A DNA stretch of 34,296 nucleotides, from contig JAHEXJ010000017.1 in the NCBI GenBank assembly GCA_023252155.1, positions 1-34,296 on the forward strand, in the 5' to 3' direction. Below the pieces are notes generated by a model that was not told the DNA's origin, searched no databases, and saw only the letters and a program-made list of their open reading frames with translations. Of this stretch, positions 6,389 to 11,386 are shown piece after piece. The position numbers and the translations under genes were made by a program. This stretch comes from Actinomycetes bacterium (GTDB lineage: Bacteria; Actinomycetota; Actinomycetes; Nanopelagicales; Nanopelagicaceae). Positions within the stretch are counted from its first letter, which is position 1, and the number at the start of each line of letters is the position of its first letter.

Positions 6389-6469
6389 GCAGGGGTATCG
6401 TGACCGTTGCACGCTCGCGGCCCTTGTAGGAAATCCTCTCACAAGCCGCTTGCGTCGATTGGAGGAGAA

Positions 6470-6631
6470 ATGGCAGAGACATATACAGGTGACGCTTACT
6501 GCGTTAAGTGCAAAGAGAAGCGTGACTTTACGGGAACCGTTAAGGTCTCAGACTCTGGTCGTCGCATGGCTCAGGGCATCTGCTCGGTCTGTGGCACCAA
6601 GCTAAACCGCATCCTTGGCAAAGCGCAGTAA
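6470..6631 (+). CDS. DUF5679 small zinc-ribbon protein
   Basis: The 53-residue protein has two CxxC pairs (Cys11/Cys14 and Cys38/Cys41) in YCVKCKEKRDF and ICSVCGTKLNRILGK, with a basic, Gly-rich centre (SDSGRRMAQG). This is the DUF5679 type found across Actinobacteria, of unknown role, probably nucleic-acid or protein binding through one zinc ribbon. The start chosen is the ATG at 6470, preceded by a near-perfect GGAGGAG; an upstream in-frame extension lacks support. A strong terminator follows, so it is probably transcribed alone. Confidence 0.9.
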   Translation: MAETYTGDAYCVKCKEKRDFTGTVKVSDSGRRMAQGICSVCGTKLNRILGKAQ

Positions 6632-6655
6632 TCCGAGCCATACAGTTCTTTAAGG

Positions 6656-6694
6656 CTGGCATCCCCGCGTACTTGTGGGGGTGCCAGTTTTTTT
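6656..6694 (+). terminator. Strong rho-independent terminator after the DUF5679 gene
   Basis: CTGGCATCCCC pairs with GGGGGTGCCAG over 11 positions (one G-T pair) around a 10-nt loop and is followed by seven T residues (6688-6694). Confidence 0.9.
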
Positions 6695-6804: not shown

Positions 6805-7953
6805 ATGAATACTGTGCAATCGGACTTGCCAACTCTTCGATTAGATGTGGCTCTGCAATTCGAATCTCGCGCCGTTAAACCACACCTCAAACGTGGAATC
6901 ATCCTTCTTCCCGGCCCGGAGTTCACCTACGTCGGTCGAATTGACCGCGGCCTCGAAGTCGCATCCCCTGCCCGTATCTCACTTTCGGATATGGATGGCA
7001 CTCATACTTGTCAGGAATTAAGTCTTGCCCGCGAAATCCCACTCGAAGACATAGAGACTTTAGTAACCGAACTCGATCGTGCCAGCCTCATCGACACTTA
7101 CTCATCCAAGATTTCGGTGCACAATCGTTTCCACTCGCCCAATATCAACCGCGCCTCACATGACGGTGACGACAGCAACGATGGCGCATTTCAACAACTC
7201 AAGGCTCGCCTAGTTCCAGAACTCGCCTCTGCCACGTGGATCTCGGGCGTTCGAGACGGCGGAGCGCAGATTGTGAGTAAACGACAGGAGTGGCAGGTGC
7301 GCATCTGCGGCGAATCGCGGATTGCAACACTTCTCTACGGAATTCTTCTTGCTAGCGGATTCACCAACACCTCGTTGCAGGCGCACAACAGTTCAAAAAG
7401 GATTGGCGAGGAAGATCTTTGCGCAGGATTTTTTCATCCCAGCGATATCGGCCTTCAATTAGAGAAACGATCAAGCGAACTAACTCGCGAGCTCTCGCTC
7501 TTTCCAATTGGTCCATCGAACAAGCCTGAAGAAACGGGCACAAAACCTCTGATGATCGCGGTCGGGGCGGTCTCGGCCGATCAAATCCAGCAGTGGATGA
7601 GCCAAGGCATCCCTCATTTAATAATTGGTATCCCAGAAAGCGAATCCATTGAAATCGGTCCGATCGTCATTCCAGGAAAGAGTCCATGCGCGCGATGTGT
7701 TGCGATGACTCGCGAGGATCAAAATCCCACATGGAAAGAAATCACATTGCAGAAAGTGCTCATGCCAAGCGTGGAAGTTCCGGTCGCGGTGGCCCATCAT
7801 GTAGCCGGAATCGCCGCACTTGAGTTACTTCACTACGTCGATGAAGGACTATCCCCGCTCATCGGCGCCAGTTCCAGGGTCAACTTTCATGGGCCACTCG
7901 CGAGCGACAAGCAAACATTTGCCCGTCACCCCGCGTGTGGGTGCAACTGGTGA
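6805..7953 (+). CDS. Orphan TOMM cyclodehydratase-like (E1-like, TIGR03882-type) protein
   Basis: The 382-residue protein resembles the actinobacterial family annotated as bacteriocin biosynthesis cyclodehydratase domain or TOMM leader-peptide-binding protein (Rv3196 position). The most diagnostic part is the C-terminal third: a strand reading IGPIVIPGKSPCARC, a helix-rich block HHVAGIAALELLHYVDE, and the end HPACGCNW. Cys295/Cys298 and Cys378/Cys380 form a likely structural zinc site as in E1/ThiF-like proteins. A middle region (about 145-290) has Rossmann-like features, but no clear glycine-rich ATP loop is visible. No YcaO gene, dehydrogenase or Cys/Ser/Thr-rich precursor peptide is seen nearby. 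It may therefore have a housekeeping role. It is convergent to whiB7. Confidence 0.72.
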   Translation: MNTVQSDLPTLRLDVALQFESRAVKPHLKRGIILLPGPEFTYVGRIDRGLEVASPARISLSDMDGTHTCQELSLAREIPLEDIETLVTELDRASLIDTYSSKISVHNRFHSPNINRASHDGDDSNDGAFQQLKARLVPELASATWISGVRDGGAQIVSKRQEWQVRICGESRIATLLYGILLASGFTNTSLQAHNSSKRIGEEDLCAGFFHPSDIGLQLEKRSSELTRELSLFPIGPSNKPEETGTKPLMIAVGAVSADQIQQWMSQGIPHLIIGIPESESIEIGPIVIPGKSPCARCVAMTREDQNPTWKEITLQKVLMPSVEVPVAVAHHVAGIAALELLHYVDEGLSPLIGASSRVNFHGPLASDKQTFARHPACGCNW

Positions 7954-7985
7954 CCCCGTGACCTTTCGCACGGGGTCAACCAGTT
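7945..7985. terminator. Long hairpin shared by two convergent genes
   Basis: AACTGGTGACCCCGTG (7945-7960) pairs with CACGGGGTCAACCAGTT (7969-7985), 16 bp with one bulged base and an 8-nt loop. The stop codon of the TOMM-like gene and most of that of whiB7 lie inside the arms. No T tract follows on either side, so it may act as a bidirectional terminator or as an RNA-stabilising 3' stem. Confidence 0.6.
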
Positions 7986-8346
7986 ACGCTGCGTCGGACT
8001 GCTCCTCCTGAATCGCGGCCGGTGTAAGCCTTGGACGTCCAACCGTCCTTCGTCTTTCAATAACCGCGCCATCTTCGAAAAGTTCGCCGCCCCAAATACC
8101 ACAGGGTTCTTCGCGAGAAACCGCTGCGTCCAAGCACTGCGAACGGACAGGACATCCACCACAGAGAGCTTTTGCGGCCGCAATACCCTCGTTGGTCTCG
8201 GAGAAGAAGAGGTCAGGATCGGCCGTGTGGCACGGCAGATTGAATGCAACATCCGAGCCGTATGTGCCTGTTACGGCATCTAGCCCAATCTTGTTTCCAT
8301 TCTGCGCCCAGCCTGGAACTAGTAGTTCGCTAAAGAGAACGGTCAT
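7984..8346 (-). CDS. whiB7: WhiB7-like iron-sulfur transcriptional regulator
   Basis: The 120-residue protein has the four cluster-binding cysteines of WhiB proteins in the expected spacing (Cys39, Cys62, Cys65, Cys71), followed by the G[VI]WGG turn (GIWGGE, 83-88). A basic segment with an AT-hook-like core follows (RRRTVGRPR, about 98-106). The AT-hook and the location next to uvrD2 indicate WhiB7, which with SigA activates intrinsic resistance genes under ribosome stress. I chose the ATG at 8346 because GAGGTGAGG precedes it; a GTG three codons upstream (8355) is possible but lacks a good ribosome site. A leader with upstream ORF and attenuator precedes the gene, which fits the known control of whiB7 and wblC. 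The symbol is inferred from domain and synteny. Confidence 0.87.
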   Translation of the reverse strand: MTVLFSELLVPGWAQNGNKIGLDAVTGTYGSDVAFNLPCHTADPDLFFSETNEGIAAAKALCGGCPVRSQCLDAAVSREEPCGIWGGELFEDGAVIERRRTVGRPRLTPAAIQEEQSDAA

Positions 8347-8461
8347 GGTCCTCACCTCATCTCTGCTGGCTTCCCAGCGGTCATCTCTCGTCTTGTCGAA
8401 GTTTTCTCATTTACTTCATTGTCAGGGGTTCTGTTTTTTATTTAGTTATGTTGGGGAAATG

Positions 8462-8498
8462 AAAAAGGGCCCGAATCCTTTGTGGATTCGTGGCCCTT
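8462..8498 (-). terminator. Attenuator terminator in the whiB7 leader
   Basis: On the minus strand AAGGGCC-A-CGAATCC pairs with GGATTCG-GGCCCTT (14 bp, one bulged A, 5-nt loop) and is followed by a short T run ending at 8462. It stands 115 nt before the whiB7 start and 16 nt after the upstream ORF stop, so it would block transcription into whiB7 when formed. Confidence 0.85.
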
Positions 8499-8539
8499 GG
8501 GGTCCTTCTCGGTTTTAACCGATTGGGCTCCAAGTGGCC
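8492..8539 (-). promoter_or_regulatory. Candidate antiterminator pairing in the whiB7 leader
   Basis: GGCCACTTGG (8539-8530), inside the last codons of the upstream ORF, can pair with CCAAGGGCC (8500-8492), which includes the 5' arm of the terminator. The pairing is 9 bp with one bulged A and is mutually exclusive with the terminator stem. A ribosome finishing at the stop codon (8515) would cover the intervening region. A ribosome held near codons 39-41 (8562-8554) would leave it free. Confidence 0.6.
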
Positions 8540-8676
8540 TGATCCGCAAATGCTGGATACCAAGCTGTGCGCTTTGATGCTCCATTAGCGGCGGCTGTAT
8601 TGGCGTGAGTCTGTGCGAAAAGATGCGCAATTGCAGCCGAAAGCGCCAATGATTGAGGTTGCATGAACTTCAACAC
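8515..8676 (-). CDS. Upstream ORF (53-codon leader peptide) of whiB7
   Basis: A GTG at 8676 follows AGGAG (8687-8683) by 6 nt and opens 53 codons ending in TAA at 8515; an ATG four codons in (8664) is an alternative start. The peptide begins MLKFMQPQSLALSAA, is rich in Ala and Asn in the middle (ANTAAANGAS), and ends AWYPAFADQATWSPIG. The stop lies just before the terminator hairpin, and the Ala-Thr-Trp codons near the end form one arm of an alternative stem. This is the arrangement expected for translation-dependent attenuation, known in principle for whiB7/wblC leaders in other Actinobacteria. The peptide itself is probably not functional beyond being translated, although the end may be conserved. 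I found no other gene in the 8347-8792 gap. Confidence 0.72.
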   Translation of the reverse strand: MLKFMQPQSLALSAAIAHLFAQTHANTAAANGASKRTAWYPAFADQATWSPIG

Positions 8677-8730
8677 GTTGCGCTCCTAACTGTTAGAAAT
8701 AAATTGCCCAAATTGAAATTGCTTAGGGGA

Positions 8731-8786
8731 AGGATAAAGGAAAGGTGCACATCCGCGCAAATGAATTAATGGTCAAACTTTTATAA
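8731..8786 (-). promoter_or_regulatory. Promoter region of the whiB7 leader with AT-rich WhiB7-type elements
   Basis: Two overlapping candidates are visible on the minus strand. One has TTGACC (8776-8771) preceded by TTATAAAA (8786-8779), with only a weak -10 (GATGTG) at 17 nt. The other has TTGCGC (8760-8755) preceded by ATTAATTCAT, then TATCCT (8736-8731) at 18 nt. WhiB7-dependent promoters are known to carry an AT-rich stretch just upstream of the -35, contacted by the AT-hook, so either fits autoregulation. The region starts 7 nt after the uvrD2 stop. Confidence 0.45.
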
Positions 8787-8792
8787 CTGTTC

Positions 8793-10463
8793 CTAACCGC
8801 CCAGTAACCCCGCCTCACGAAGGAATCGGCTGGGATTTCCTCGATAACTCAAGAACAAATGGCTCTTCGCCCGCGTAATTCCCACATAAAACAGCCTTCG
8901 CTCCTCCTCTACTGCGTTTTCATGGGTTGGAAGCGTCCCTTCATTCACCCCGACCAGAAAGACTTGGTCCCATTCGAGGCCCTTTGCAGCGTGCAATGTT
9001 GCAAGGGTTGTCACCGGCATGACCGGCGGATTGTTCTGTTCGGCTCGCTCTTCGAGTTCACGCAGGTAATTCCGCAAAGTTTTCGGCGTAAAGGCCGAAT
9101 CGCGATCGAGTTCGCGGGCCAAATGGAGCAGGGCGGTAATTCCGTCTGTACTCGAGTTTGTAATGAACGGCTGTGCGATCGAACCCAACTCCTCGATCCA
9201 CGAAAGATCGTGAGTTGGGATGACAGATGCTTGTCGCACACCCTTTAGGAAGTCCCGAACGTCGCTCCGATCGAAGAAGCGATCGTTGTTTCGAACTTGA
9301 TAGGGAATCTGCGCGGCAACACACGCGCGTTCAAGGGCGTTGAGTTGCGAGTTGGTGCGGGCGAGGACCGCAATATCCTGCGCTGCTACCCCAGTAGAGG
9401 TGAGTTTGATAATTTCTTCAACGACGCCTGATGCCTCTTTGGATTCATCTCGATACTCCCTAACCAAAGGGTGAGAGCCGTGATCATTTACTGAAGTGAT
9501 CTCATGCCCCATCGATGCGCTTCGTAAAACGGTGTTGGCCATGAAGTTGATCTCCGGCGTCGAGCGATACCCCGCGGACAAGCGAATGACTTGAGCTTCC
9601 GGAAATCTGCGCGTGAAAGTATTGAGAAAAACCGGGGTTGCTCCAGCGAAAGAATAAATGGTTTGTGCCGGATCGCCCACGACGCAAATTTCTTCTCGGC
9701 TGCCCAACCACGCATTGATCAATCTCTGTTGAAGCGGAGAAATATCCTGGTACTCATCAATCGTGAAATGACGATACTGATCTTGCACCCGTTCGCGGAC
9801 TTCGCGTTCCTCTTCGATCATCGCCGTCGTGAGAAGCAGAACATCCTCGAAGTCTATGGTGCGCTCTTGTCGCTTCAAACTTTCGTAGGCTTCATACACC
9901 TGGGCAACTTGGCCCGGATTTATGCGGCTGCGTTCTGCGCGATCTTTGGACTCCTCGATGTAATTCTCGGGAGCAATTTGCGAAACCTTGGCCCACTCAA
10001 TTTCTGTAGCGATATCTCGCATCAATTCGCGAGATGAGTTGCCGAGAGTGCTGACCAAACCCGCCCGCGAGATTGCCTCTTTCAGAAAGGCTGCCTTGGT
10101 CGTCAGTAAATCCGGAGTCCGACCACCAAAGACACTTGGCCAGAAGAAAAGCAGTTGTTTTAGGGCCGCGGAGTGAATTGTCCGAGCTGCAACGCTGGGA
10201 ACACCAAGCGAGCGCAGTCGTGCGCGCATCTCACCGGCTGCCCTTGCCGTAAAGGTGAGCGCTAGAACCTTCTGCGGGTTCATCACGCCGATGGCCGCAG
10301 CGTAGGCAATGCGATGTGTAATCGCACGGGTCTTGCCGGTTCCAGCCCCTGCGATAACGCAGACGGGCCCTCGAACCGCCAGGGCTACCTGTCGTTGTTC
10401 ATCATCAAGGGCTGCCAATATTTCTTCGGCGCGCACATCATTTACTTCAGGCAGCGGATTCAT
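8793..10463 (-). CDS. uvrD2: UvrD2-like superfamily I DNA helicase without HRDC domain
   Basis: The 556-residue protein is a 3'-5' SF1A helicase by motifs: Walker A GAGTGKT (39-45), DEYQD (236-240), GDPAQTIYSFAGA (263-275), a TLHAAKGLEWDQVFLVGVNEG block and VGITRAKSHLFLSYRG near the end. Mycobacterial UvrD2 is about 700 residues, with a cysteine-containing linker and a C-terminal HRDC domain. This one stops directly after the motor (FLREAGLLGG), so both are missing. The start used is the ATG at 10463, which overlaps the nudC stop as ATGA; in-frame upstream ATGs at 10472 and 10514 lie inside nudC. Downstream lies the whiB7 promoter. Role: DNA unwinding in repair or replication restart; specifics are inferred. 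Confidence 0.9.
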   Translation of the reverse strand: MNPLPEVNDVRAEEILAALDDEQRQVALAVRGPVCVIAGAGTGKTRAITHRIAYAAAIGVMNPQKVLALTFTARAAGEMRARLRSLGVPSVAARTIHSAALKQLLFFWPSVFGGRTPDLLTTKAAFLKEAISRAGLVSTLGNSSRELMRDIATEIEWAKVSQIAPENYIEESKDRAERSRINPGQVAQVYEAYESLKRQERTIDFEDVLLLTTAMIEEEREVRERVQDQYRHFTIDEYQDISPLQQRLINAWLGSREEICVVGDPAQTIYSFAGATPVFLNTFTRRFPEAQVIRLSAGYRSTPEINFMANTVLRSASMGHEITSVNDHGSHPLVREYRDESKEASGVVEEIIKLTSTGVAAQDIAVLARTNSQLNALERACVAAQIPYQVRNNDRFFDRSDVRDFLKGVRQASVIPTHDLSWIEELGSIAQPFITNSSTDGITALLHLARELDRDSAFTPKTLRNYLRELEERAEQNNPPVMPVTTLATLHAAKGLEWDQVFLVGVNEGTLPTHENAVEEERRLFYVGITRAKSHLFLSYRGNPSRFLREAGLLGG

Positions 10464-11386
10464 CGGGACCATCCAGTACTGCCCAAATCGTTTTCTGCTT
10501 GGACGCCATACCAATACTCAATCATCCGTCTTGAAACACTGATCCGCGGCGGCAAAGAAATGTCACCGCTGGCAACCGCGACCTTGAGGTCTTCGCGAGA
10601 GAACCATCTGATCTCGACAATTTCTTCGCCATCTGGACGTGCGATTGAAATATCAGATGCAGTTGCTTCATAGGCAATCATGATGGAAGCTGGGAAAGGC
10701 CACGGTTGCGAACCCAGATAGTGGACAGAATGGACTACGAGTCCGGATTCTTCCTCGACTTCTCGAAGCACACACTGCTCGAAGGACTCACCGGGTTCGA
10801 CAAAACCTGCGAAATTGGAAAATCTCCCTGGCGCCCATGAATGTTGACGACCCAACAAAATTCGATCTTGCTCATCCTTTATCAGCACAATGACTGCAGG
10901 ATCTGTGCGCGGATGATGTTGACTCGCATCGATTTCACAAACTCGTACCGCACCGCCCAAATCGGATTTTGTCGCCGCTCCACACAGTGCGCAAAACTGA
11001 TGCGAGGTATGCCAATTTGCCAATGCAATCGCATGTACGGCAAGGCCAGCTTCTTCGTCGTCAATTTCTGCGCCAATTTGGCGAAGTGATCTCAATTCCG
11101 CATCAATGAATATTTCTTCGGTGGTATGCCAGGCAAAATAACTGGTCCCGTTGGCGGCATCTAGGCCAAGGAAATATTTCTCACCGATGCCTGAAATTTC
11201 ATCGGATTTATGGAAGATCAAACCCGAATCCGTTGCATGGACGCGATCGACCACGACAACGAGAATCTTTGCCTCGTGCCAGAGTTGCTCCATTTTCAAA
11301 GGATCTGTTCGCAGATGACCGGCTCGATCAATAATGCTCCGAGCCAGAACAAGGTTGTGCAACCGACCTTTGTTGGTGACGCTCAT
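10460..11386 (-). CDS. nudC: NudC-like NAD+ diphosphatase / RNA de-NADding Nudix hydrolase
   Basis: The 308-residue protein has a Nudix box GFVEPGESFEQCVLREVEEESGL (194-216) with all catalytic glutamates and the NudC-specific SQPWPFPAS motif (226-234). An N-terminal zinc-ribbon region contributes FCALC (Cys132, Cys135) and a third Cys150, but the fourth expected cysteine is not visible before the HHPRTDPAVI strand. NudC cleaves NAD(H) to NMN(H) plus AMP and can remove NAD caps from RNA. The start at 11386 gives the usual family length (about 310) and lies behind a TAGTCT -10-like hexamer. A longer reading frame back to 11608 would overlap the divergent gene. It is translationally coupled to uvrD2. 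Confidence 0.9.
   Translation of the reverse strand: MSVTNKGRLHNLVLARSIIDRAGHLRTDPLKMEQLWHEAKILVVVVDRVHATDSGLIFHKSDEISGIGEKYFLGLDAANGTSYFAWHTTEEIFIDAELRSLRQIGAEIDDEEAGLAVHAIALANWHTSHQFCALCGAATKSDLGGAVRVCEIDASQHHPRTDPAVIVLIKDEQDRILLGRQHSWAPGRFSNFAGFVEPGESFEQCVLREVEEESGLVVHSVHYLGSQPWPFPASIMIAYEATASDISIARPDGEEIVEIRWFSREDLKVAVASGDISLPPRISVSRRMIEYWYGVQAENDLGSTGWSR

Follow-up and report, generated by a model that had tools for sequence, protein, structure and literature searches.

The leader of whiB7 in the analyzed stretch of DNA (the window, 34,296 nucleotides) is very probably a translation-coupled transcription attenuator, for which we infer promoter use, translation in this organism, termination and induction by stress. 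The best reading is that it represents the whiB7/wblC attenuator of this type, already described for soil-dwelling relatives, in a freshwater actinobacterium. The present analysis adds the antiterminator, a promoter-like block past uvrD, and a sensing part rich in alanine, threonine and histidine. It extends a known resistance switch to abundant freshwater bacteria with small genomes, since 60 of the 61 family genomes searched gave a match to the RNA element (a weak one in four cases), and the comparison splits the RNA constraint from the peptide constraint on the whiB7 upstream open reading frame (uORF).

Organization of the whiB7 leader

The source genome comprises 1.8 Mb in 114 contigs and is 83.8% complete. 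The elements of the leader and the flanking genes, in the direction of transcription, are as follows.

8793 to 10514, minus strand: uvrD-type helicase gene, preceding the whiB7 unit in the same direction (Pfam UvrD-helicase and UvrD_C)
8731 to 8770, minus strand: promoter-like block, with ATTAATTCAT at 8770-8761, TTGCGC at 8760-8755, 18 nt, and TATCCT at 8736-8731
8683 to 8687, minus strand: AGGAG, Shine-Dalgarno-like site of the uORF, with a 6-nt spacer to GTG (sequence)
8515 to 8676, minus strand: uORF of 53 codons plus TAA (sequence and ORF list; orthologues and coding signal in the family)
8530 to 8539, minus strand: antiterminator 5′ arm GGCC-a-CTTGG, from the last position of codon 46 through codon 49 (duplex tests and folding)
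8492 to 8500, minus strand: antiterminator 3′ arm CCAAGGGCC, which overlaps with the 5′ arm of the terminator (duplex tests and folding)
8465 to 8498, minus strand: terminator hairpin of 14 pairs with one bulged A (sequence and folding; compensatory changes at 7 of the 14 pairs)
8462 to 8466, minus strand: terminator T run (sequence)
7984 to 8346, minus strand: whiB7, 120 aa (Pfam WhiB; best solved match WhiB7 7kif, E 2.6e-25)

The uORF starts with the GTG at 8676, ends with the TAA at 8517-8515 and encodes the peptide MLKFMQPQSLALSAAIAHLFAQTHANTAAANGASKRTAWYPAFADQATWSPIG. The terminator hairpin reads AAGGGCC-a-CGAATCC / ACAAA / GGATTCG-GGCCCTT. An earlier note on this DNA had described a 53-codon uORF with AGGAG 6 nt ahead of its GTG and a spacing of 16 nt from the uORF end to a 14-bp T-tailed hairpin, and the window sequence agrees with both statements to the base; the distance of about 170 nt that it gave from the uORF to the whiB7 start is 168 nt, counted from the stop codon to the ATG at 8346. 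In our judgement, this ATG is more likely to be the whiB7 start than the GTG that the ORF list gives at 8355. Three T-tailed hairpins in the whole window, both strands included, reached a score of at least 18, and the leader hairpin is among them; the top-scoring one lies at 6654-6689 on the plus strand, shortly past an ORF at 6407-6631.

Among the solved structures, the window WhiB product matched WhiB7 far better than WhiB1 (E 1.4e-9), WhiB4 or WhiB3, and on these matches the gene downstream of the leader is a WhiB7 orthologue. NCBIfam assigned no family to the 120-aa product. WhiB7 matches at E 1e-15 or better were obtained in 178 of 201 family genomes, and some of them (e.g., in G094, G050 and G047) contain stop codons inside the aligned stretch, presumably owing either to alignment overrun or to damaged copies. 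Four more WhiB-like matches, 25-47% identical to the query (L002-L005), lie on other contigs of the source genome (C86, C88 and C100 of G000). The gene at 6805-7953 on the plus strand, convergent with whiB7, showed a weak, sub-threshold similarity to a TOMM precursor leader-peptide-binding domain.

An alignment of 19 same-genus leaders showed that ATTAATTnATTTGC and a TAnnnT hexamer, which in the window lies 18 nt past TTGCGC, are conserved. With moderate confidence, we regard this conserved block past uvrD as the putative whiB7 promoter. A scan of 7600-9800 for the sigma-70 consensus returned no site. In the available part of PMC7157823, the WblC site of the autoregulated promoter is given as an AT-rich GAAAWY sequence 3 nt upstream of the −35 element; the AT-rich block of the window occupies about the same position as the site described there, with different letters (not GAAAWY).

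These elements are combined in the following proposed mechanism. Transcription would begin just past uvrD, and the uORF would be translated while it is being made. Ribosomes reaching the stop codon would cover the antiterminator 5′ arm, so that the terminator could form and RNA polymerase would halt ahead of whiB7. With a ribosome stalled or unloaded before about codon 44 (by a drug or by a shortage of charged tRNA), GGCC(A)CTTGG would be left free to pair with the 3′ arm once the latter has been transcribed, ahead of the terminator 3′ arm. The terminator foot beside the T run would then be occupied, and read-through into whiB7 would follow. A response of whiB7 to antibiotics would be expected in this organism.

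Conservation of the layout in the family and the class

To define the family set, we started from 154 loci and discarded 15 short leaders as well as 25 duplicates, leaving 114 distinct leaders of at least 350 nt each. The uORFs were placed by a hairpin and open-frame rule, which superseded an early end-motif rule (77 of 88 leaders placed); where one leader held several frames, we chose the one whose end was most similar. In every one of the 114 distinct leaders, a T-tailed hairpin follows an open frame of at least 25 aa at a distance of 5-45 nt, and the chosen uORFs stop 15-25 nt ahead of the hairpin. For the chance test, a single detector (a T-tailed hairpin after a uORF of at least 25 aa) was applied to the same 450-nt stretches, real and dinucleotide-shuffled. 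It responded to 114 of 114 leaders of the family (freshwater Nanopelagicaceae, acI) vs. 19 of 684 shuffles, and a hairpin score of 20 was reached by 111 real leaders vs. one shuffle. A Shine-Dalgarno-like match of at least 4 nt precedes an in-frame start in 84 of the 114 leaders. The openness of the frame alone is weak evidence, because over the last 40 codons or fewer the +1 frame has a stop in only 48/114 leaders and the +2 frame in 93/114.

The commonest ends of the family uORFs are GGSTR, WSPIG, WSSIG, WGSTR and WSAIG. Two leaders, L202 and L207, do not fit these, their uORF ends being too divergent for the status of orthologues; they are included in the 45-leader recoding set described below and excluded from the 43-leader duplex, covariance-model and composition sets.

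The class set consisted of 60 leaders, mostly one per genus, taken from the matches listed for 243 matching genomes (296 searched). The uORF-hairpin arrangement was found in 46 of the 60, and the detector used did not find it in the other 14. The class uORFs end in P-P-x in 16/46 cases and in W-[SG]-P-P-x in 9/46, which we take as the same end as WSPIG.

Predicted competition between terminator and antiterminator

The sequence GGCC(A)CTTGG pairs with CCAAGGGCC, which is mostly shared with the terminator foot. Folded apart, the terminator and the antiterminator are nearly equal in stability (−25.2 and −24.2 kcal/mol). In stepwise folding, the antiterminator was complete ahead of the terminator 3′ arm, except when the RNA was masked as far as the stop codon; the masking model strips all RNA upstream of the front edge of the ribosome and is cruder than a real footprint. 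Once the terminator 3′ arm is complete, the equilibrium favors the terminator even without a ribosome (0.86-0.96), and whole-RNA equilibrium folding gives no switch by itself. Since the equilibrium lies on the terminator side at that point, the switch would have to be kinetic, and the stepwise folding model suggests a switch of this type. A kinetic decision is usual for attenuators.

Counted in a fixed register, antiterminator pairs occupied 69.7% of cells vs. 67.1% in shuffled rows, and a slide by one column gave 69.3% with a higher covariation score. These counts are equivocal, and register-free duplex tests were therefore used. We think that the register of the antiterminator shifts between genera, because in L058, for one, the leader's own duplex is displaced by one base.

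Among 43 family leaders, the uORF tail paired with its own arm at −22.3 kcal/mol and with swapped arms at −17.5 kcal/mol, and none of 3000 permutations was as good. In the family controls, a tail window taken 15 nt upstream retained a small effect (12/3000), and windows at least 30 nt upstream or the stretch past the T run gave no effect (234/3000 or more). The class yielded −23.4 kcal/mol for the own arm vs. −19.6 kcal/mol for swapped arms (45 leaders, L156 being excluded as cut at a contig end; 0/3000 permutations as good), with no effect in the controls using tail windows 30 or 60 nt upstream. Motifs chosen after inspection of the rows followed the same pairing: TCGAG occurs in the tail of 6/7 class leaders with a TCGAG arm, 0/21 with a CCAG-type arm and 2/18 others.

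Synonymous recoding of the tail weakened the pairing from −22.0 to −15.3 kcal/mol in the family (45 leaders), where 27/45 stood at 5% or less, and from −23.4 to −20.3 kcal/mol in the class (46 leaders), where 12/46 did so. For the window leader, 1.5% of the synonymous recodings were as stable as the real tail. The duplex tests and the stepwise folding support an antiterminator that would exclude the terminator, and both competing helices co-vary, with the fixed-register counts equivocal.

Coding and composition of the uORF

In 38 independent pairs of family uORFs, with the last 12 codons excluded, 157 of 302 single-base codon changes were synonymous. This fraction of 0.52 compares with 0.276 (sd 0.022) when the same changes were placed at random, so the frame appears to be read across the family. 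The window and its nearest relative (L007) differ by two synonymous and six non-synonymous single-base codon changes, a comparison that alone would not show coding.

The xTGG core of the uORF end stands in phase 2, as Trp, in 48 leaders, and in phase 1 in 37 of the 39 leaders with Gly there. This change of amino acid with phase, together with the weakening of the pairing on recoding, argues that the antiterminator is the main reason why the end is conserved. The earlier note had proposed conservation of the last 15 codons as a test, and the ends are indeed similar in many leaders; the similarity is mostly that of RNA pairing and gives by itself no proof of peptide function. The peptide that its reader could give no identity to is here an end-conserved whiB7 uORF (ATWSPIG).

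The N-terminal part of the uORF is variable even among close relatives, and the sensing part is most consistently marked by its composition. Within the stretch preceding the arm, alanine averaged 21% over 43 family leaders and exceeded the 10.3% of the window proteins in every one of them; this background is crude, being made of 22 ORFs of at least 200 aa from one window, uncurated as genes. Against the same background, threonine was elevated in 43/43 leaders, histidine in 42/43 and tryptophan in 41/43, and glycine and leucine were below it in all 43. The remaining two frames of the family DNA have about 6% alanine. In the class uORFs, alanine averaged 19.5% in the pre-arm stretch. Of the 53 codons of the window uORF itself, 14 specify Ala, and 13 of these come no later than codon 44. 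Taken whole, the family peptides look rich in Ala, Thr, His and Trp and poor in Gly, Leu, Val, Asp and Glu.

We also advance a tentative proposal, which we consider less likely than not. Across Actinomycetes, the whiB7 leader might sense translation through the amino acids that make up a freely evolving uORF (chiefly alanine, joined in the acI family by threonine and histidine) rather than through a peptide motif, the motif-like C-terminus being a mere reflection of the antiterminator RNA; the acI bacteria of freshwater might then keep the switch mainly as a sensor of alanine or general starvation rather than of drugs. With the uORF end explained by the antiterminator and composition as the steadiest trait, what the whiB7 uORF senses becomes testable by codon replacement.

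Alternative explanations

The leader hairpin could act as an ordinary terminator, and one might suppose that it merely closes the unit before it, be this uvrD or a gene for a small protein, with the whiB7 promoter lying after it. The median of 81 nt from hairpin to whiB7 in the family would accommodate a compact promoter in many leaders. However, the gap is shorter than 60 nt in 19/114 leaders and shorter than 50 nt in five, which leaves little space for both a promoter and a ribosome site; the sigma-70 scan around the gene found no promoter, and co-variation links the uORF tail to the terminator arm. We therefore give this explanation very little weight. An equally improbable view is that the product of the uORF functions as a small protein or as an arrest peptide specific for a drug, so that the peptide and not the RNA is what is conserved. 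Coding selection across the family and the likeness of the C-terminal residues in many leaders agree with it, whereas the phase change of xTGG between Trp and Gly leaders, the weakening of tail pairing under synonymous recoding and the divergence of the N-terminal part among close relatives speak against it.

Chance open frames are plentiful here: the segment 6500-10500 is overlapped by 73 ORFs of 20 aa or longer, and in some leaders a second frame also stops close to the hairpin. That the uORF is such a frame, standing by accident ahead of a terminator, is nevertheless hardly credible given the detector counts in real and shuffled leaders, the coding signal in the 38 family pairs and the co-variation of terminator and antiterminator.

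Two familiar leader types were also considered and rejected. An attenuator of amino-acid biosynthesis would have a frame rich in the codon for its operon's product; here an alanine-rich frame precedes a regulator gene and not a biosynthetic one. For an arrest-peptide leader of the erm type, no conserved arrest sequence was seen, the N-terminus being variable and the end explained by RNA.

Relation to known leaders

Lee et al. (2022, Mol Microbiol 117:179) reportedly described the whiB7/wblC uORF attenuator in Streptomyces and Mycobacterium. The available parts of PMC11550727, PMC9618640 and PMC13393426 present an attenuator of the same logic for whiB7/wblC, and that of PMC4128351 reports a uORF, a stem-loop and attenuation at whiB7 in two mycobacteria. 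As far as these excerpts go, the window leader resembles the known system in its downstream gene, uORF, Rho-independent terminator, antiterminator and position. The layout in 46/60 class leaders and the W-[SG]-P-P-x end of 9/46 class uORFs add to the likeness. It differs in belonging to low-GC acI and in using CTTGG/CCAAG, in contrast to CCTGGAG/CTCCAGG in many class leaders. The earlier suggestion that attenuation is shared with other actinobacterial whiB7/wblC leaders is borne out as a probable reading by WhiB7 orthology, conservation in family and class, coding selection and the co-varying antiterminator.

In the part available, PMC13236596 treats the ilvB1 leader of M. tuberculosis as an amino-acid attenuator. 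The window leader shares with that type, so far as described there, a leader frame that is presumably translated (alanine-rich in the window) and terminator/antiterminator alternatives, but the gene it would control encodes a transcription factor, in place of an operon for making that amino acid. The excerpts of PMC13236596 and PMC13370626 cite Poulton et al. The available part of PMC12421871 describes Streptomyces leaders that belong to ABCF genes for antibiotic resistance, such as are5sc and tiaA, in which a uORF senses ribosome-targeting drugs and a terminator and an antiterminator are present; drug sensing by the window leader would be the corresponding inference. By the same source, the uORFs of the ABCF leaders are very short and ribosomes stall on their start codons, in contrast to the 53-codon frame and WhiB regulator here. 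A literature search, in which works pairing Nanopelagicales with WhiB (among them one on phage WhiB proteins) were covered in part, returned no account of the whiB7 leader in Nanopelagicaceae.

Distribution of the RNA element

At gathering scores, Rfam detected only a tRNA in the window, and the leader itself received a single chance-level match (E 2.9). A covariance model was built from the family RNA and used to seek further copies. In the source genome, it matched the whiB7 leader and its opposite strand and nothing else. Among the 61 family genomes, the 60 matches stood at E 0.01 or better, the four weak ones lying between 4.6e-5 and 1.9e-4. The model does not reach the class: 8/59 genomes matched, four of them in the family and four weak, so that outside the family 4/55 class genomes were found, weakly.

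Eight weak or odd sites in the family genomes were inspected. Six coincide with the ends of longer ORFs and resemble ordinary terminators, and L227 is without a convincing uORF. In genome G013, which has no whiB7 match, a whiB7-type leader (L228) lies past a uvrD-like ORF at a contig end, and its lack of whiB7 is probably due to the contig break rather than to gene loss.
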